Below are positions 17,278 through 31,902 of a stretch of 64,000 bases of DNA, in pieces; positions within the stretch are counted from its first letter, which is position 1; each line of letters opens with the position of its first letter. This DNA is from Salinicoccus sp. Bachu38. GTDB taxonomy: Bacteria > Bacillota > Bacilli > Staphylococcales > Salinicoccaceae. The position numbers and the translations under genes were made by a program. The stretch spans positions 62,001 to 126,000 of the forward strand of contig NZ_CP138333.2 in assembly GCF_038561955.2 (NCBI RefSeq). The letters are read 5' to 3'. The notes beneath the pieces were generated by a model. It worked only from the letters and a program-made list of their open reading frames with translations. It searched no databases and was not told where the DNA came from.

Positions 17278-18387
17278 TCACTTACGCTTTTTCAAATCGA
17301 CTTTCCGGCCCTTCCATTCGACCTTTTTAATTATATGCGTCTGGATGAAGGACAGTCCATATACATGGAAAAAGAAGAGCGAATACAGGGGATACAGAAA
17401 GAAGTTATACCATGGGAGGAGAATCAGCCGTCTGCTCATCCACCTGAACTGCAGTGCATACAGGATATAGAATACGACAGGCCAGAGGATACTCTCAAAG
17501 TGCCATATGGCCGTAGAGACCAGGTAGGCAGGTGCGATAAGTGTGCCGCTGAGCCACAGCATGATCAATGCCATCACCCAACCCTCCGTATTCTCGGCGC
17601 CTGAGGCAATATGCTTCGTCCATCCCTTGACTACGGAAGGCAGCCCTTCCGGGTACATTCTGAACTGCAATACATCGTATCCCATATAGAGGGTCGTCGG
17701 CAGCCCTTTTTCATGGTAGCCCCTGTATATGCCCATGCCTTCTATAATCGTCTCCTTTGCATTCATATGACCGCCTGTAGCGGCATAGTCCCGCCGTCCT
17801 GTCATGAGAAACGGCCCGAACACCGTGCTGGTATGGGTCCGGTCCCCAAAAGCTGAGAATATATTCATTCCTGTGACAGTGACAATGTTGAAGATGGCCG
17901 AGAATGTTTCGTGGAATCTTTCTGTCTGATGAAATGGCTGGATGGAAAGGACACCCCTCCCGCCCTGCTTGCGATACTGTGCACTGATGCGGGAAAGCGA
18001 ATCGTCACCGGTAAATGAAGTGTCCGCATCCATGAAGACAAGGGTGCCGTATCGGGCATGCTGTGCGCCATGATGGCACGCATGGCTCTTGCCCTGCCAC
18101 TCCCCCTCCGGCACCTCAATGACTGTCGCACCGGATGCCTCGGCTATTTTGCGTGTGTCGTCAGTCGAGCCATCGTCTGCAACGATGACCTCCAGGGAAG
18201 TGAGTCTTTGCCTGCCGATGCTATCCAGCAATTTTGGAAGGTTATGGCCTTCATTCCGGGCAGGAACGATGATGCTGATACTGGCGTCAGATCGGCTTCT
18301 CCCGATGAAGCTGGGATTCTTATAAACGATATGGCCTGAGATAAGACAAAGTATGAGGATCGAAATCCAGATGAAATGCCAAGCCAT
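17278..18387 (-). CDS. crtQ: 4,4'-diaponeurosporenoate glycosyltransferase
   Basis: A 369-residue family 2 glycosyltransferase with an N-terminal membrane helix and two or three C-terminal ones. It resembles staphylococcal CrtQ throughout, including SIIVPARNEGHNLPKLL, VIVADDGSTDDT, EWQGKSHAC, the DAD metal site (FMDADTSF), SIQPFH and the C-terminal VEWKGRK. CrtQ adds glucose to the carotenoid acid at the inner membrane. ATG 18387 lies one base after the crtP stop, so translation is probably coupled. It is the last gene of the crt operon and ends at a bidirectional terminator. Confidence 0.93.
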   Translation of the reverse strand: MAWHFIWISILILCLISGHIVYKNPSFIGRSRSDASISIIVPARNEGHNLPKLLDSIGRQRLTSLEVIVADDGSTDDTRKIAEASGATVIEVPEGEWQGKSHACHHGAQHARYGTLVFMDADTSFTGDDSLSRISAQYRKQGGRGVLSIQPFHQTERFHETFSAIFNIVTVTGMNIFSAFGDRTHTSTVFGPFLMTGRRDYAATGGHMNAKETIIEGMGIYRGYHEKGLPTTLYMGYDVLQFRMYPEGLPSVVKGWTKHIASGAENTEGWVMALIMLWLSGTLIAPAYLVSTAIWHFESILWPVVFYILYALQFRWMSRRLILLPWYNFFLYPLYSLFFFHVYGLSFIQTHIIKKVEWKGRKVDLKKRK

Positions 18388-18388
18388 G

Positions 18389-19888
18389 CTATTTCCCGCT
18401 TCTTTCTCTGTCTGCAATCATTGCCCCAACCTGCTGGCCGCTTAACGTGACCATCGGCATGCCGCCCCCGGGGTTGACTGTGCCGCCCACGAAGTAGAGG
18501 TTATCAATATGCTTTGCTTTTTTGGGATGTTTGAAGCCCTTGTTCTTTTTACGGTCGGAGACGGTGCCATAAATCGCCCCGTGGTCTGAAAAATAAAGGG
18601 ATTCGATATCGTGGGGAGTGAGCATATATTCAGAGACGATATGCTCACGCAAACCGACAAGTCCCATATTCTCAAGCTTATCAAGTACAGTCTCCCTGAA
18701 GGCCAGGTAGTCCGTCTTGGTATATTCCTTACCCTGCAAAGGCGGGATATGGGGAAGTATCTTCAGGTTTTCGTGCCCGGGCGGGGCCTGGCTGGAATCT
18801 GTCTTGTTCGTATTGACCAGATAGATGGTCGGATCTGATGGCAGCACCTTCTCATCAAATACTTCCCTGTAGTTCTGCTTCGAATCTTTCGAAAAGAAGA
18901 AGCTATGATGACCAAGCTGGGGATAGGTGCGGTCGACACCAATGTGCAGTACGAGGCCGGAACTTGCCGGCTCGAACCTGTCTTCGAGTTTCTTCAAATT
19001 CTGAGGAGGATAATCCAGCACATGGCGATAGAACGGCAATACTTCCATGTTGGAGACGATATAGTCGGCACTTCTCCTACTGCCGTCTGCTAAAACGATA
19101 TGCTGGATGCGCCCGGTACCCTCCGTCACTACAGTCTTAATCGATTGGCTGATATGTACATCGACGCCGATATCGCATGCCAGTTGCGCAATCCCTGCGG
19201 CGAGTTTATGCAGGCCGCCTTTGACATACCATACGCCCGTTTCATGCTGCATGTGGGCCATCATATTCAGGACAGCCGGTGCCCGATAGGCACTTGAGCC
19301 GACGTATTTGATGAAATAGCCCAACATATCCCGCATGTGCGGATGGCTGACACGTCTATTGATCCCCTGCTGCATGGTGGAGAAATAGTCGAAGCCACGC
19401 AGGGCGGTGAGCGGTCCATGGAACCCTATGATGGAGCGGACATCATCAAAGCCTTTTTCAAAGTAGCCAGGTAGGGTCAGATGGTCAATCTTTCCGGCGT
19501 AGGATAGAAACTTGCGGTATTCTGCCATATCCCTCCCGGACAATTGGGGGTTCTCCCGGGCCATCCTGTCAAGGTCGCCATAGAGGTCTATGTGGGTGCC
19601 GTCAGTGAAGAAGGCACGCCATTGAAGCGGCACCTCCCCGATTTCGACATAGTCATCCATATTCTTTCCGCTTCTTGAAAAAAGGCGTTCGAAAATATAC
19701 GGCATGGTCAGGAGGGATGGCCCCAGATCGAACCCGAATCCATCCTGTTCATGGCGATTCAACTTGCCACCAAGGTGGTCGTTCTTCTCGTATAGGCTGA
19801 CATCGAAACCTTCCTGTTTCAATGTGATTGCTGCAGATAGACCGCCCAGTCCACCCCCGATGACCAGAACTGTCCTTTTTTTGGACAT
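18389..19888 (-). CDS. crtP: 4,4'-diaponeurosporene oxygenase
   Basis: A 499-residue flavoprotein of the carotenoid desaturase/oxygenase family that oxidises a terminal methyl of 4,4'-diaponeurosporene. The N-terminal FAD dinucleotide motif VLVIGGGLGGLSAAI, the FDLGPSLLTMPYIFE segment and the C-terminal GGTVNPGGGMPMVTLSGQQV all match S. aureus CrtP rather than CrtN. The ribosome binding site is AGGGGGCAGGGG. It lies between crtM (15-base gap) and crtQ (one base) on the minus strand. Confidence 0.95.
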   Translation of the reverse strand: MSKKRTVLVIGGGLGGLSAAITLKQEGFDVSLYEKNDHLGGKLNRHEQDGFGFDLGPSLLTMPYIFERLFSRSGKNMDDYVEIGEVPLQWRAFFTDGTHIDLYGDLDRMARENPQLSGRDMAEYRKFLSYAGKIDHLTLPGYFEKGFDDVRSIIGFHGPLTALRGFDYFSTMQQGINRRVSHPHMRDMLGYFIKYVGSSAYRAPAVLNMMAHMQHETGVWYVKGGLHKLAAGIAQLACDIGVDVHISQSIKTVVTEGTGRIQHIVLADGSRRSADYIVSNMEVLPFYRHVLDYPPQNLKKLEDRFEPASSGLVLHIGVDRTYPQLGHHSFFFSKDSKQNYREVFDEKVLPSDPTIYLVNTNKTDSSQAPPGHENLKILPHIPPLQGKEYTKTDYLAFRETVLDKLENMGLVGLREHIVSEYMLTPHDIESLYFSDHGAIYGTVSDRKKNKGFKHPKKAKHIDNLYFVGGTVNPGGGMPMVTLSGQQVGAMIADRERSGK

Positions 19889-19903: not shown

Positions 19904-20791
19904 TTATGCATCTTTGATATTTTTGAGAAACTGGCTTTCTTCATTCCTGATTTTCATTTTGCGTGTCATGGAAACAGCGTTGCGTTTTGAGAAACAGTCG
20001 TAGTTGCTGCTTCTCACTTCATTCAGAATTTCACGATAGACGGAGAGTGAGACCAGAAGTGGAAGCTGCGCCTCCTCCTTGTAATGGAGGATCTCTTTTC
20101 TGAAATCCTCATAGAGCACCTCCGCCTCTCTCGCCAGATGCTCCCAGGCGTCCATGAATGCCTGGTCGACTTTCCGTTCTTCAAGCTGCGCCACGGAACA
20201 GCCGTAATCATTGAGGATGGATGCGGGGATATAGACACGTCCATGTTCTCTCATATCCTCGCCGATATCCCGCAGGATATTGGTGATCTGCATGGCGATG
20301 CCGAGCTTTTCTGCATTCGCTTTCCGTTCCTGTGACAAATCATCGCTCAGGATTGGCAGAAGGAGCTTTCCTACCGACCCTGCAACATGGCTGCTGTAAT
20401 GGATCAGGTCGTCCATATCTTTCGGCTGTTCGAAATGGACATCCATTTCCTGCCCCCTGATTTGGGCATAGAGCATGGATTCATCGATATCATAACGGTC
20501 CACGACATCCCCGAGGGCACGCCACATTGGAGCTTGGGGCATATTCCCTGCAACGAATGCATCAAGTCCGTCTTCAAGCTGTCTGAGGTTGGCGATTCCA
20601 GTCTCCGCATCTTCTGCCTGGTCTATGGCATCATCTGCCATACGACAGAAGGCATAGACGGCATAAACTGCATTCGCATCCGTCTCAGGCAGAGTGGAAA
20701 AAGCATAATAGAAACTTTTGGAGTGCTGTCTGATTAAGGATTGGCATTGTCTATAATCACTTTCCAGCGAGGGGGTGTAATTTTTGGTCAT
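19904..20791 (-). CDS. crtM: Dehydrosqualene (4,4'-diapophytoene) synthase
   Basis: A 295-residue head-to-head prenyl synthase that condenses two farnesyl diphosphates to the C30 carotenoid precursor. Both aspartate-rich Mg2+-diphosphate sites are visible: DDAID at residues 53-57 and DIGED at 175-179, followed by GRVYIP. ATG 20791 follows AGGAGATACGAAT and is 14 bases after the crtN stop; a longer frame running back into crtN is an artefact. Confidence 0.96.
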   Translation of the reverse strand: MTKNYTPSLESDYRQCQSLIRQHSKSFYYAFSTLPETDANAVYAVYAFCRMADDAIDQAEDAETGIANLRQLEDGLDAFVAGNMPQAPMWRALGDVVDRYDIDESMLYAQIRGQEMDVHFEQPKDMDDLIHYSSHVAGSVGKLLLPILSDDLSQERKANAEKLGIAMQITNILRDIGEDMREHGRVYIPASILNDYGCSVAQLEERKVDQAFMDAWEHLAREAEVLYEDFRKEILHYKEEAQLPLLVSLSVYREILNEVRSSNYDCFSKRNAVSMTRKMKIRNEESQFLKNIKDA

Positions 20792-20805: not shown

Positions 20806-22305
20806 TTAGTGATTTTCGTCCTTCAACAGCTCTCCAACGGCAATTTTGGAAGACAGAAGCACAATAGGCACACCAGCCCCGGGATGGGTGCTGCTGCCTG
20901 TAAAATAAAGGTTTTCGCAATGCGTCGCCTTGCTTTGCGGTCTCAAGTGGTTGCTCTGCACGAGCGTCGGACGGAGTCCAAATGTTGCGCCGTTATATGC
21001 ATTGAAGCGTCCTTCGAATTCCTGGGGCGTCATCATCGTTTCCGAAACGATCTCCTGTTCAAAGTTTTCCATGCCCGGCAGCATTCTGATCTTATGGATG
21101 ATCCTATCCCGATACATTCCAGACAATTCATCGGTCCATTCATATTTCATCGTGGCCGTGTCGGATACAGGCATCAGAATATATAGGCCATCCTTGCCTT
21201 CAGGCGCAAGGGATGCATCAATCTTGGAAGCGATATACATATAGAGGGAAGGATCTTCTAGCATCTCACCGTCAAAAATCTGGTTGATATTCGTGTCCAG
21301 GTCTTCCGAAAACACGAAATTGTGGACATTATCGATTTCAGGATACTTTCTGTCCATCCCGAGATAGAGGACGAAACATGAGCAGGAATAGTCCATCCGG
21401 TCGACTTTCTCATCCTGGTACCTTCCCTTATGCTCCGGTTCCCTGACCAGGCTTTTCATTGCATATGGGAAATCTGCATTGCACATGACATAGTCTGACG
21501 GAATGAAAGTGCCTTCCGATGATACGCCAACGGCCTTTTTATTTTCTATGACGATGTGATCTACACTGGTCTCATATTCGATGCTGCCACCCATTTCCAT
21601 GAACATGCGTTCCATGCCGGAAGCCATCGTACGCATGCCGCCTTTGATGAACCAGACACCATAGAGGAATTCTATCATTGGAATGATCGTGTAGAGCGAA
21701 GGTCCCTTGAAGGGGGAGATGCCGATGTAAAGGGTCTGGAAACTGATCATCTGTCTCATGCGCTTGTCTTTAATATATTTCTTCATCAGATTCTCAGCGT
21801 TGTTCAATGTTCTAAGCTTTATGCCCTGTCCAATCATGAAAGGATTGTAGAAGTCCTTTTTGTTTCTGAATGGACGTTGCAGAAAATGCTTTTTGGCGAT
21901 ATTGAACCGATGATAGAGGTCGCTCAGATATCTCATGAACCCTTCGGCATCCTCATCACTGATCTCCTCGAACATTTCTATGTTCTTCACAAGATCATTG
22001 GTCACCTGGTACTGCTTCCGGCCATTATCAAAATACCCGCTGTACATGGGATCGAGCCGCTGCATGGGAATGTAGTCTTCCGGATTCCGTCCGGCAAGCT
22101 CGAAGACTTCTCTGTACAGTTCCGGCATCATGACGATGGTCGGCCCGAGGTCGAATTTATAGCCGTCGACATCGATGCGGTTCATCTTGCCCCCGGGTGT
22201 GGATTCCTTTTCCAATATTTTGACTTCAAAGCCCTCATGCTGAAGCCGGATTGCACTTGCCAGGCCGGCAACCCCCGCCCCGATGATCGTAATCTTTTTT
22301 GTCAT
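20806..22305 (-). CDS. crtN: 4,4'-diapophytoene desaturase
   Basis: A 499-residue FAD-dependent desaturase that turns 4,4'-diapophytoene into the yellow diaponeurosporene. The N-terminal motif ITIIGAGVAGLASAIRL binds FAD; FDLGPTIVMMPELYREVF and the C-terminal TGSSTHPGAGVPIVLLSSKI are family hallmarks and match CrtN, not CrtP. ATG 22305 has GAGGAA upstream, eleven bases after the fni stop. The tight spacing puts it in the same transcript as fni and crtM. Confidence 0.96.
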   Translation of the reverse strand: MTKKITIIGAGVAGLASAIRLQHEGFEVKILEKESTPGGKMNRIDVDGYKFDLGPTIVMMPELYREVFELAGRNPEDYIPMQRLDPMYSGYFDNGRKQYQVTNDLVKNIEMFEEISDEDAEGFMRYLSDLYHRFNIAKKHFLQRPFRNKKDFYNPFMIGQGIKLRTLNNAENLMKKYIKDKRMRQMISFQTLYIGISPFKGPSLYTIIPMIEFLYGVWFIKGGMRTMASGMERMFMEMGGSIEYETSVDHIVIENKKAVGVSSEGTFIPSDYVMCNADFPYAMKSLVREPEHKGRYQDEKVDRMDYSCSCFVLYLGMDRKYPEIDNVHNFVFSEDLDTNINQIFDGEMLEDPSLYMYIASKIDASLAPEGKDGLYILMPVSDTATMKYEWTDELSGMYRDRIIHKIRMLPGMENFEQEIVSETMMTPQEFEGRFNAYNGATFGLRPTLVQSNHLRPQSKATHCENLYFTGSSTHPGAGVPIVLLSSKIAVGELLKDENH

Positions 22306-22316
22306 TTTCTGATTCC

Positions 22317-23366
22317 TCACTTATCCAGCGCGCGCTGTCTCTGCCATGAAATGACTTCAGGGCTCAGGACGAGGGGGCGGCTGGTAATTTCTTCGATATC
22401 TTTTGCATCGATCAAGATGGAAATCTTGCGCATCTGATGGTGGAACTGTTCCACATGGTCGATGGCGGCTTCGACGCCATGGTGCTCCACCTGCTCCAGC
22501 ATCAGTCTGGACATGCCCACGGCTTTCGCCCCGAGAGCCAGGCACTTCATGGCATCGAGTGGTGTTTTGATGCCGCCACTTGCCAATATATGCATATCCC
22601 CGCCGAAGGGTTGGGCTTCAAGGAGGGAGATGGCTGTGGAGAGTCCCCAGCTGCTCAGGTAGGCCATATCCTTGTTTTCACGACGGAGATTTTCTATGGA
22701 AGCGAAATTGGTGCCGCCCTTGCCGCTGACATCTGCATATTGGACACCGATATCTTTCAGAGTCTGCAATGTTTCCCTGCTCATGCCGAACCCCACTTCC
22801 TTGATGATCACCGGAACATCCACATGTCTGACGATGTTCTCTATATTGCCACGCCATGATTTGAAATTGCGGTCCCCCTCGGGCATGATGAGCTCCTGCG
22901 GGGCATTGATATGTATCTGGAGCGCATCTGCACGGAGCATGTCCACGGCCCGTTTCGCACCGTCGAGGGAAATGTCTGCCCCCACATTCGCAAAAATGAT
23001 GCCGTCCGGATACCTGGTGCGGACGATTGTAAATGAATCCGACAGCTCAGGATGCTTCAGTGCTGCATGCATGGAACCGACCGCCATGGGTACGCCTGTC
23101 GCCTGGGCCACTTCGGCCAGCTTCCCGTTGATTTCCCGTGTCCATTCACTCCCCCCGGTCATTGCATTGATGTACAAAGGCCGCGGAAGCGCAAAAGGAC
23201 CGAAACGGGTGGAAAGGTCCACATCCTCCATATTGACAGAAGGGATGGACTGATGTACGAAATGGACATTATCGAAGTCGGAAAAGGCTGTTTGTGAAGC
23301 CTGTTCAAGGGCATGTCTGACGTGCTCATTTTTCCGTCGGCTTCTTGGATCTGTTTCCCTGTTCAT
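22317..23366 (-). CDS. fni: Type 2 isopentenyl-diphosphate delta-isomerase
   Basis: A 349-residue FMN-dependent enzyme that interconverts IPP and DMAPP, supplying the allylic starter for farnesyl diphosphate. Visible family segments are RRKNEHVRHAL, INAMTGG, HINAPQELIMPEGDRNF, VIIKEVGFG, VSGKGGTNF and ASGGIKTPLDAMKCLALGA. ATG 23366 follows AGAGGAGACAGGG and overlaps the crtO stop codon by four bases (ATGA). In S. aureus this gene is not part of the crt operon, so its insertion between crtO and crtN is a distinctive feature here. Confidence 0.95.
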   Translation of the reverse strand: MNRETDPRSRRKNEHVRHALEQASQTAFSDFDNVHFVHQSIPSVNMEDVDLSTRFGPFALPRPLYINAMTGGSEWTREINGKLAEVAQATGVPMAVGSMHAALKHPELSDSFTIVRTRYPDGIIFANVGADISLDGAKRAVDMLRADALQIHINAPQELIMPEGDRNFKSWRGNIENIVRHVDVPVIIKEVGFGMSRETLQTLKDIGVQYADVSGKGGTNFASIENLRRENKDMAYLSSWGLSTAISLLEAQPFGGDMHILASGGIKTPLDAMKCLALGAKAVGMSRLMLEQVEHHGVEAAIDHVEQFHHQMRKISILIDAKDIEEITSRPLVLSPEVISWQRQRALDK

Positions 23367-23872
23367 TCCCTGTCTCCTCTCTTTTTGGCTCTTTCTGATT
23401 TTAACTGATGCAGCCGGGGACGATTGTAGCGTTGGGCAATAATGAAGGGGACATTGCTGGAAAGGGCATAAAGAATGTGGATTACCCTTGCGGATTTCGG
23501 ATTCCACAGGAAGAACATGGGGACGGGCAGCATGGACACTCAATGGGTCAGTTCCGCCCGGTTTGTTTCGTCAATATAGGTGAGGATGGTTTCCGGGTCG
23601 GTGCGGCCCATCGCGGACTGGTCGAAACTCTCCGGCACGATGATTGTACTTTCAGGCAGTCGGCCCTTCCATTTCTTAATATTGAAAAGCCGGTCCCAAA
23701 GCGCCCCCTCCTGTTCGAAAGGATAGCTTCTGTAGAGGGAAGCAAAACGGTTTATTCTTTGAGTATCCAGTTTCAGCATGTAATTTGAAATGATCAGATG
23801 TACAGCCAGCCATACAAGGGCATTGATCACAAAAAGTGCAAAAAGGGATGGTACTTTCAATTTTTTAGCCAT
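23363..23872 (-). pseudogene. crtO: crtO, glycosyl-4,4'-diaponeurosporenoate acyltransferase, interrupted by in-frame TGA
   Basis: CrtO attaches the fatty acid in the last step of staphyloxanthin synthesis. Codons 1-110 encode an N-terminal membrane helix, then FEQEGALWDRLFNIKKWK and DETNRAELTH, all aligning with S. aureus CrtO. Codon 111 is TGA (23542..23540), where the S. aureus protein has Trp (AELIHW). Beyond the TGA the same frame stays open for 58 codons and still matches CrtO, with a second hydrophobic segment, NVPFIIAQRYNRPRL and a basic C-terminus, ending in a TGA that overlaps the fni start (ATGA). A single TGG-to-TGA change explains this. It may be a true nonsense mutation, a sequencing error, or a read-through stop. 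The gene heads the operon. Confidence 0.88.
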
Positions 23873-23949: not shown

Positions 23950-23983
23950 CCATTATCAGTGATAATGGTGTGATTTGTAAAAT
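23950..23983 (-). promoter_or_regulatory. Promoter of the crt operon with overlapping 19-bp palindrome
   Basis: On the minus strand TTTACA, an 18-base spacer and GATAAT make a plausible sigma-A promoter about 80 bases before crtO. The -10 box lies inside the perfect palindrome CCATTATCAGTGATAATGG (23950-23968). Its core TATCAGTGATA is the same as that of the classical tetracycline operator, so a TetR-family repressor is a reasonable guess. No sigma-B type promoter, the form that drives crt in S. aureus, was recognised. Confidence 0.6.
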
Positions 23984-24048: not shown

Positions 24049-25668
24049 CTATTGATTCTGATTGTCTGCTTCCTGTTCGGCTTTTATTTCTTCTGCACGT
24101 TCACGCTTGGATTTCTCTATATAGTCCTTCATGCGCTGCCTGTTCGGTGTAATGGAAAGTCCGAGGTACTTGCGTTCTTCATTTGCATCCTTATAGAAGG
24201 ACACCATCATCGAAATGATGATGAAGCTGAACGGGAAGGCTGAGATGATGGCTGCCGACTGCAATGCTGCAAGCCCTGTATCTCCACCTGATAGCAATAG
24301 TACGAAGGCGATGGAAGACAATGCGATACCCCAGACAACCTTGATTTTGTTGGAAGGCTGCAGGGATCCGAATGCGGTCTGCATGCCGAGTACATACGTA
24401 GCCGAATCGGCGGAGGTTACAAAGAATGACGAAACGAGCAGCAATGCGATGACTGACAGAATCATGCTCATCGGCAGTTCATTGAATATGCCGAACAGCA
24501 TCGTTTCAGCATTCATATCAAAGATGGCTGGTACAGTCTTTCCGATTTCAATACCTGTAACACCAAACACACTGAACCACACGATGCTGACAAGTGTCGG
24601 GACGAGGAGTACTGCCAGGACGAATTCACGTACTGAACGCCCACGGGATACTCTCGCTATGAATATGCCGACGAACGGGCTCCAGCTCATCCACCAGCCC
24701 CAGTAGTAGATGGTCCAGACCTCGAGCCACTCGCTTTTCTGCTGATTCAGAGGTGCAACGTCAAGGCTGTTGTAAAGAAACGTATCGAGCATGGCACCTG
24801 TGGATGTATTCATCATATTGAGAATCATCATTGTTGGACCGAGAATGAGTACAGCAATCAGAAGAATGCCTGCAAGTCCCATATTCAGGTTACTCAAGTA
24901 CTGGATTCCCTTGCTTAGCCCGCTCCACGCACTGATCAGGAACAGGAATGTAACGACTGCTATGATGATTCCTTGGACTACGATGTTGATTGGTACACCA
25001 AACAGGTAGTTTAGCCCACCGTTAATCTGCAGTGTGCCGACACCAAGGGATACGGCGACACCGATGATGGTCGCAAACACGGAAAGTACATCGACTGCGA
25101 TGCCGATCGGACCGTCGACACGATCACCGAGTATCGGTCTCAGTGTTTTGGACAGAAGCCCGACTTCACCCTTCCTGAACTGTGAATAGGCGAGAGCCAG
25201 CGCCACGACGCCGTACATTGCCCATGCATGGAAGCCGTAGTGGAAGAAAGTCGAGCGCAACGCTTCCACCATGGCAGCGTCCGTTTCAGGGTCAGCCGTC
25301 GGTGGCCCCATATAGTGCTGGATCGGTTCAGCTGCACCGTAGAATACGAGGCCGATACCCATCCCGGCACTGAACAGCATGGCAAGCCATGATATGGTCC
25401 GGAATTCCGGCTTGTGGTAGGGTTTGCCGAGTTTCAACTTGCCGATTGGGCTGAAAACAAGGAAGATACAGAAGAACACCATCAATGTGGTGATAATCAG
25501 GTAGTACCAGCCGAAGTATTCAATGACCCATGACCCGACGTTGCCAGTGACCTGGCCAAACCGATCCGGGAAAATGGCACCCAGTATCACCATGATGCCC
25601 ACGATTATGGAGGCATAGATGAAGACTTTGGATAGTTTTCTACCGCTAGGTTGTGTAGAGTTTTCCAT
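24049..25668 (-). CDS. BCCT family glycine betaine/choline transporter (OpuD-like)
   Basis: A 539-residue sodium-coupled osmolyte importer with twelve membrane segments. The glycine-rich ion site SAGMGIGLVFYGAAEP and the aromatic betaine-binding segment YYWGWWMSWSPFVGIFIARVSRGR identify the BCCT family. A charged cytoplasmic C-terminus (about 60 residues, ending EEIKAEQEADNQNQ) is where osmotic sensing is placed in related carriers. ATG 25668 has AAAGGAGG upstream; an extension to 25836 has no site and would add an unlikely hydrophobic leader. Confidence 0.93.
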   Translation of the reverse strand: MENSTQPSGRKLSKVFIYASIIVGIMVILGAIFPDRFGQVTGNVGSWVIEYFGWYYLIITTLMVFFCIFLVFSPIGKLKLGKPYHKPEFRTISWLAMLFSAGMGIGLVFYGAAEPIQHYMGPPTADPETDAAMVEALRSTFFHYGFHAWAMYGVVALALAYSQFRKGEVGLLSKTLRPILGDRVDGPIGIAVDVLSVFATIIGVAVSLGVGTLQINGGLNYLFGVPINIVVQGIIIAVVTFLFLISAWSGLSKGIQYLSNLNMGLAGILLIAVLILGPTMMILNMMNTSTGAMLDTFLYNSLDVAPLNQQKSEWLEVWTIYYWGWWMSWSPFVGIFIARVSRGRSVREFVLAVLLVPTLVSIVWFSVFGVTGIEIGKTVPAIFDMNAETMLFGIFNELPMSMILSVIALLLVSSFFVTSADSATYVLGMQTAFGSLQPSNKIKVVWGIALSSIAFVLLLSGGDTGLAALQSAAIISAFPFSFIIISMMVSFYKDANEERKYLGLSITPNRQRMKDYIEKSKRERAEEIKAEQEADNQNQ

Positions 25669-30474: not shown

Positions 30475-31902
30475 TTATTTGAAATAACCTTTGATCGCTT
30501 TGACTTCGAGAAACTCCTCGATGCCATAATCCCCCCACTCGCGGCCGATGCCGGACTGTTTATAGCCGCCGAATGGAAGATCCTTGCGTCCACCTGCACC
30601 ATTGATTTCCACTGTGCCCGCTTCAATGCGGCGGGCGACGTCTTTGAGGGTCTCCATGTCTTCGCCATATACATAGCCTGCAAGTCCATATTTGGTATCG
30701 TTCGCAATATCGATTGCTTCATCAAGACCTTTATAGGTGATGACGGACATCACCGGACCGAAAATCTCTTCCTGGGCGATGACCATGTCATTTTCAACAT
30801 CGGAGAAGATGGTTGGTTTTACGAAGAATCCCTTGTCGAGACCCTCAGGCTGTCCGGTGCCCCCATGGAAGAGTGTTGCGCCTTCCTCTGCACCCTTTTC
30901 AATATAGGACTGTACAGTATCAAACTGTTTGCGGCTGACAAGAGGGCCGACAGCAGTCCCCTCTTTGCGCGGGTCGCCGACTTTCACCTGCTCCATTTCC
31001 TTTTTCGCCGCCTCAAGGAATGCCTCCTTCATGGATTCCGGAACCAGCGTCCGGGTACCTGCCGTGCATACTTGTCCAGTATTATGGACAACCTTTTTGA
31101 CGGCGATTTTGGCAGCTTCTTCGACATCCGCATCATCGAGGATGATGAGCGGCGATTTTCCTCCGAGTTCAAGGGAGACGTTCTTGAAGTCCCTGCTTGC
31201 CTTCTCCATGATTTTGGAACCTGTGGAGCCGGAGCCGGTGAATGACATCATACGGACTTTCGGATGCTCACTGAGCGGGTTCCCTACACCTTCACCGTCT
31301 CCATTGACGAGGTTGAATACGCCTTTCGGCACACCGGCAGCCTCGAAGATTTCAGCGAGGATGATGGCTGCGAAAGGTGTCTCCTCTGAAGGTTTCATGA
31401 CTACAGGGCTGCCCGCTGCAAAGGCGGCCGCCAGTTTCAGAGATGTCTGGTTGGTCGGGAAGTTCCAAGGGGTGATGAGTCCTGAGACACCGATGCCTTC
31501 CTTCACTACAAGGTGGTCACCACGCTGCTCCTCAAATTCGAATGTATCAAGCGCATCCCGTGCGGCCGTGAAGTGGTTGATGCCCGCCTGGTAATGTGTC
31601 TTTTCGGACATCTCAAGCGGGGAACCAAGCTCATCTGTAATCGCCTCGATCAAATCTTCTTTGCGATTTTCGTATTCCTTCACAATCCTGTCCAGCATTT
31701 CACGTCTTTCCTCTACAGGTGTATGACGGAATTCAAGGTAGACGGAGTGGGCGGCTTCGACAGCCTTGTCGACATCTTCAGCATTGCCTTTGGCAATCCT
31801 GCCGAAGGCTTCACCGTTTGCCGGATTGATGACCTCGATTGTTTCTCCGCTTGCACTTTCTACCCATTCTCCATTTATATACTGTTTCGTATGATTTCTC
31901 AT
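30475..31902 (-). CDS. NAD(P)-dependent aldehyde dehydrogenase
   Basis: A 475-residue aldehyde dehydrogenase. The general base lies in [10 protein letters not shown] (Glu) and the catalytic cysteine in [22 protein letters not shown] and [11 protein letters not shown] form the cofactor site. It is closely similar to a generic S. aureus aldehyde dehydrogenase and not to the AldH used in staphyloxanthin synthesis, which has a different length and termini. The start follows AAGGGG. Substrate unknown. Confidence 0.93.

Follow-up and report, generated by a model that had tools for sequence, protein, structure and literature searches.

A probably recent nonsense codon in the crtO gene of the older of two carotenoid clusters of Salinicoccus sp. 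Bachu38

The crtO gene at the head of a carotenoid (crt) operon of Salinicoccus sp. Bachu38 is interrupted by a single in-frame TGA. We consider it very probable that this is a genuine and recent nonsense mutation in the older of two crt clusters, and that it is tolerated because the second cluster carries an intact crtO. CrtO is glycosyl-4,4'-diaponeurosporenoate acyltransferase, which carries out the last step of staphyloxanthin synthesis. The window analysed here, a stretch of 64,000 nucleotides with a G+C content of 48.1%, contains the first operon in the order crtO-fni-crtN-crtM-crtP-crtQ on the reverse strand (23872 to 17278), with a betaine-type BCCT transporter upstream of it. The features concerned are as follows.

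24049..25665, reverse strand: betaine-type BCCT transporter, which precedes the operon in all 7 of the 7 genus members that have it and serves as syntenic anchor
23952..23981, reverse strand: promoter-like TTTACA-N18-GATAAT upstream of crtO
23363..23872, reverse strand: crtO of the first (main) crt operon with one nonsense codon, from translation, Pfam and alignment
23540..23872, reverse strand: remaining 110-codon truncated ORF, from which the final predicted helix, with the QRYNR motif, is missing
23540..23542, reverse strand: in-frame TGA, codon 111 of crtO, a position with Trp in 30 of the 31 closest rows and 46 of 69 overall
22317..23363, reverse strand: fni, type 2 isopentenyl-diphosphate isomerase, intact (TIGR02151, 403 bits, cut-off 281), with its own GGAG before the ATG
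20806..22320, reverse strand: crtN-like desaturase, intact
19904..20791, reverse strand: crtM-like C30 synthase, intact, the only match found in the genome
18389..19888, reverse strand: crtP-like oxidase, intact, second-cluster counterpart 59% identical
17278..18417, reverse strand: crtQ-like glycosyltransferase, intact, second-cluster counterpart 40% identical

Translation of the reverse strand gave 110 codons from position 23872, the TGA at 23542..23540, a further 58 codons and a terminal TGA at 23365..23363 that overlaps the ATG of fni; apart from codon 111 there is no stop in the frame. The Pfam CrtO profile (PF18927, curated cut-off 27.3 bits) matched the read-through protein with 93.4 bits (E 1.7e-26), and it also matched each half alone above the cut-off, the part before the stop with 39.2 bits (E 1e-09, profile positions 3-70 of 123) and the part after it with 39.1 bits (E 1.1e-09, positions 73-120 of 123, adjoining the stretch covered by the first part), which identifies the gene as a member of the CrtO family. 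A first-pass annotation of this DNA had described the gene as intact except for one in-frame TGA, with a natural stop overlapping the fni start; both points were borne out, and the mismatch to CrtO that it had considered for the downstream 58 codons was not seen. The codon 111 TGA removes these 58 codons and probably makes the first crtO a pseudogene. It can be seen in an AlphaFold model of CrtO (25 sequences, mean pLDDT 84.2) that codon 111 lies near the end of helix 93-114, and that the QRYNR motif, missing from the truncated product, falls within helix 126-168; going by this model, the 110-residue product should be inactive. A Foldseek search of the model against the PDB returned no matches at E <= 0.001 (best E 1.0). 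A TTG that overlaps the crtO TGA also opens a frame into fni (22317-23543, reverse strand, 408 aa), which automatic annotation may call as a falsely long Fni.

With a GGAG in front of fni itself and open frames in the genes that follow, the remainder of the first operon is probably still used. The promoter-like element, as TTT(A/G)CA-N18-GATAAT, was present in all seven genus members with the operon, whether crtO was present or not, and a search of the 600 bases before fni did not reveal it in the three genomes of genus g4. A plasmid search with positions 1-25000 of the window gave no match.

To place codon 111 in the family we used 69 homologue rows (68 other crtO matches and that of Macrococcus lamae) and a separate alignment of the 31 closest rows, in which two pairs are identical. 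One row, from genome G014, runs on into crtP and was kept in the 31-row alignment but cut for the CrtO tree and the 69-row set. At the codon 111 column the 69 rows have W (46 rows), L (17), G (2), A (2), V (1) and I (1), and the 31 closest rows have W (30) and G (1). The position had been called a conserved tryptophan; this stands for the close relatives and not for the wider family, and on these alignments Trp at codon 111 is the usual residue in near relatives, rather than a fixed one. The 17 rows with Leu all come from more distant genomes of the order; this residue, which follows the conserved His of CrtO, varies by subgroup.

A stop was found at this column in none of the 69 rows. Several candidates were examined and rejected. 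The TGAs flagged as in-frame stops in the crtO matches of G003 and G024 proved to be natural terminal stops. Six of the 38 weaker matches were flagged with TAG or TAA (G096, G099, G101, G104, G110 and G128), but in the DNA none of the 38 has a stop between 10 residues before the column and the QRYNR motif; stops elsewhere in their frames were counted by profile envelope, which often overruns the natural end.

The 31 closest rows share 17 further invariant columns, and the window crtO has all 17 intact, 8 of them after the stop; this was also the case on a 25-row alignment, and a few of these columns vary among the 38 more distant rows. Identity to homologues was higher after the stop than before it in all eight comparisons made. 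However, the same difference was seen in 28 of 28 homologue pairs that did not include the window copy, and the higher identity is therefore a trait of the family and no sign of special constraint. In the CrtO tree the window crtO forms a lone long branch with weak placement.

The absence of decay after the stop is what would be expected if the codon were read through, with a near-cognate tRNA-Trp decoding UGA to give a low level of working CrtO. Leaky reading of UGA inserts Trp in E. coli and Salmonella, as described in PMC7918605, and Trp is the usual residue at this position (46 of 69 rows), in a column that also tolerates other residues. Nevertheless, TGA is an ordinary stop here, ending 15 of the 54 long ORFs of the window, and we found no sign of a suppressor: none of the 60 tRNAs read has a UCA anticodon, selA was not found in the genome, and the stem of tRNA-Trp is not shortened, a shortened stem being a feature discussed in PMC13092985. 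Neither dedicated machinery nor a stop in any of the 69 homologue rows was thus found for recoding of the stop codon to Sec or Trp and, because no row has a stop at the column, the UGA does not appear to be a kept feature. We therefore regard functional read-through as decidedly unlikely. A variant, in which the UGA is kept on purpose, so that leaky Trp decoding keeps the first CrtO at a low dose as a step towards loss while the second cluster took over the late pigment steps, we hold to be very unlikely indeed. The commonest stop among the 54 long ORFs is TAG (24), with TAA ending 15.

Stop and restart would give a two-piece CrtO, as a GTG and an ATG lie 0 and 6 bases past the stop (TGA GTG TCC ATG). 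Against this, the break would fall inside predicted helix 93-114, the second piece has no clear ribosome site by eye, and again no homologue row has a stop here. We give this reading hardly any credence, and a nonsense mutation that ended the function of the first crtO remains the preferred interpretation.

The genome (2.62 Mb in one contig, 99.98% complete, 1.54% contaminated) has a second crtO, CrtO2, at G000:C1:1922943-1923395, which is intact and 43% identical to the first. It is part of a second cluster, crtP-crtO-crtN-crtQ, at about 1.921-1.926 Mb. Neither crtM nor fni was found in the 18 kb surrounding this cluster, and in searches across the genus this genome gave a single crtM and a single fni, both in the window operon. 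The dN/dS of CrtO2 was 0.08-0.13 in five species pairs, a range that points to purifying selection on this gene. CrtO2 presumably does the same chemistry as CrtO, so the strain may still form an acylated C30 glycosyl carotenoid. It had been predicted from the TGA that the strain should make an unacylated glycosyl ester; as a second intact crtO is present elsewhere in the genome, with the dN/dS values given above, this does not follow and we find it unsupported. We propose that an ordinary nonsense mutation would have struck the first crtO after this copy had become dispensable, with CrtO2 of the crtP-crtO-crtN-crtQ cluster supplying the acyltransferase; the truncated CrtO would be dead, and fni and the later operon genes would still be expressed from fni's own ribosome site and their open frames.

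We then considered the first-cluster crtO across relatives. Seven of 12 genus members have crtM, crtP and fni of the first cluster, and the same seven own the second cluster; no crtO and no crtM were found in the other five. Genus g4 adds three genomes with both clusters; one of these, G022, has a first cluster without crtP. Both clusters are therefore present in ten genomes of the family, window genome included, and in none of the ten is the first-cluster crtO intact: one has the nonsense codon described here, three have relics with large deletions and six are without a convincing remnant. The stretch between the transporter and fni is 685 bases long here as against 154-376 in the six siblings within the genus. 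Remnants of crtO were detected in this interval in G006, G007 and G009 (z 7.8, 8.4 and 5.8), at scores that 0 of 300 dinucleotide shuffles reached. In the six genomes without a convincing remnant, the score was reached by 18 of 300 shuffles for G003, 41 for G005, 8 for G010, 252 for G022, 213 for G023 and 20 for G024, the G010 value being borderline; in these genomes the gene may have been lost in few events, or it may never have been present.

G007 and G009 share one deletion junction, at an ATGC which the window copy carries at both ends, and the break points in G006 differ from it. Together with the window TGA this makes three different lesions of the first crtO; we count lesions and not branches of a tree because the operons may recombine. 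In the operon tree (Fni, CrtN and CrtM combined) the window genome pairs with G006, and G007 with G009. The dS between G007 and G009 was 0.03-0.07 for crtN, crtM, crtP and crtQ and 0.15-0.31 for fni, the transporter and four second-cluster genes, and the first crt operon of these two genomes (L087 and L088) appears to be the product of a recent exchange between species.

These remnants also bear on whether the TGA is a sequencing or assembly error, with the gene intact in the organism. One nonsense codon in a frame that is open elsewhere, with all 17 of the other residues invariant among close relatives kept, is what such an error would look like. On the other hand, the genome is a single contig of high completeness, single-base substitution errors that happen to create a stop are rare, and three relatives have this gene damaged too, by two other lesions, so that a true loss becomes more expected. 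We judge an error to be improbable. The first-pass annotation had left open a recent event, a sequencing error or read-through; because remnants with deletions of two other kinds occur in three related species, the recent event is the likely one and the other two are less likely. Its proposal of a single nonsense codon, probably recent, is accordingly supported.

For the five operon genes, dS between the window genome and G006 was 0.36-0.61; an even division would put roughly 0.2-0.3 on the window-genome branch. Neutral decay was simulated with substitutions only, in 2000 runs for each level of divergence, and runs were scored as survivors when no further stop had arisen and all 17 residues were kept. 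Survivors made up 6% of the runs at 0.05 changes per site and 0.5% at 0.1, and there were none at 0.2. On the assumption of free drift after the stop, the TGA would be much younger than the split from G006, and an event independent of the G006 deletion.

All ten two-cluster genomes retain fni, crtN and crtM of the first operon. It can be seen that fni and crtM, for which the second cluster has no counterpart, are kept in 10 of 10, and that the genes that are broken or missing all have such a counterpart: crtO is intact in none, crtQ is absent from G003 and G010, and crtP is absent from G022. An apparent loss of crtQ in genus g4 was left out of the losses because a crtQ (47-49% identity) lies on the opposite strand outside the cluster, at a distance of about 6.5-8 kb. 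A weak second crtO match in G022, near the displaced crtQ, was also rejected, having a bad alignment and no match to the CrtO profile. As crtN is kept in all ten despite its counterpart, the two clusters are not simple duplicates. One observation that stands against simple redundancy is that the window crtO keeps 17 of 17 invariant residues and has no further stop, a state that few runs of the neutral simulation preserved, although its relatives have lost the gene; its good shape despite the presence of CrtO2 implies that it was selected until lately, and argues that the two crtO genes are not fully redundant.

In four of four one-operon genomes fetched with their flanks (G015, G019, G060 and M. 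lamae), crtO is open at the head of the cluster; their one-cluster status is based on a crtP search that found no second cluster for G015 and G019, on a single crtO match for G060 and on the locus alone for M. lamae. G060 and M. lamae have the order crtO-fni-crtN-crtM-crtP-crtQ, as in the window, and the place of crtO as the first gene of the operon is for this reason probably ancestral. In G014 an open crtO lies directly before a cut crtP matched only over residues 222-495, and fni, crtN and crtM were not found within the 18 kb read around crtO; this locus (L116) is a collapsed crt cluster.

The window gene thus resembles other CrtO (PF18927) systems in the profile match of both halves and in standing first in its crt operon, as crtO does in M. 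lamae and G060, and differs from them in being interrupted at codon 111 and in having a second family member elsewhere in the genome. A comparable situation is described for Planococcus faecalis, where the crtP copy in the C30 carotenoid cluster is inactive and a remote paralogue is active, as shown in E. coli (PMC7764019). The present case is of the same kind, here for crtO and with lesions across species; activity was demonstrated for P. faecalis whereas here that of the paralogue is presumed, and the lesion is visible in the sequence here while no nonsense codon is described for crtP in the abstract and section 2.1 of that paper. In S. capitis D2T, a strain without pigment, crtN carries a frameshift (PMC10570620); this is likewise a single lesion in a crt operon gene, but it affects an early step, whereas the lesion here affects a late step and an intact second copy is present in the genome. 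Among the open-access matches listed, no title or abstract start concerned crt clusters of Salinicoccus.

Taken alone, the TGA adds one more broken gene by ordinary pseudogenisation. Across the family it forms part of a small natural experiment, in which ten genomes have a second crt cluster, without crtM and fni, beside the older operon, and in which the genes affected in the latter (crtO in every genome, crtQ in two and crtP in one) are among those with a second-cluster counterpart, crtM and fni never being lost. As the ten genomes are related, these losses are not ten independent events. The case also serves as a warning against inferring a pigment phenotype from one operon.

A further gene near the operon encodes an aldehyde dehydrogenase (30475-31902, reverse strand), 4.8 kb from the BCCT gene. 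In G005 and G003 a counterpart is found on this side as well, with about 89% identity over the portion covered. Its best model is betaine-aldehyde dehydrogenase, below the cut-off, and it could be either a carotenoid AldH or a betaine enzyme.
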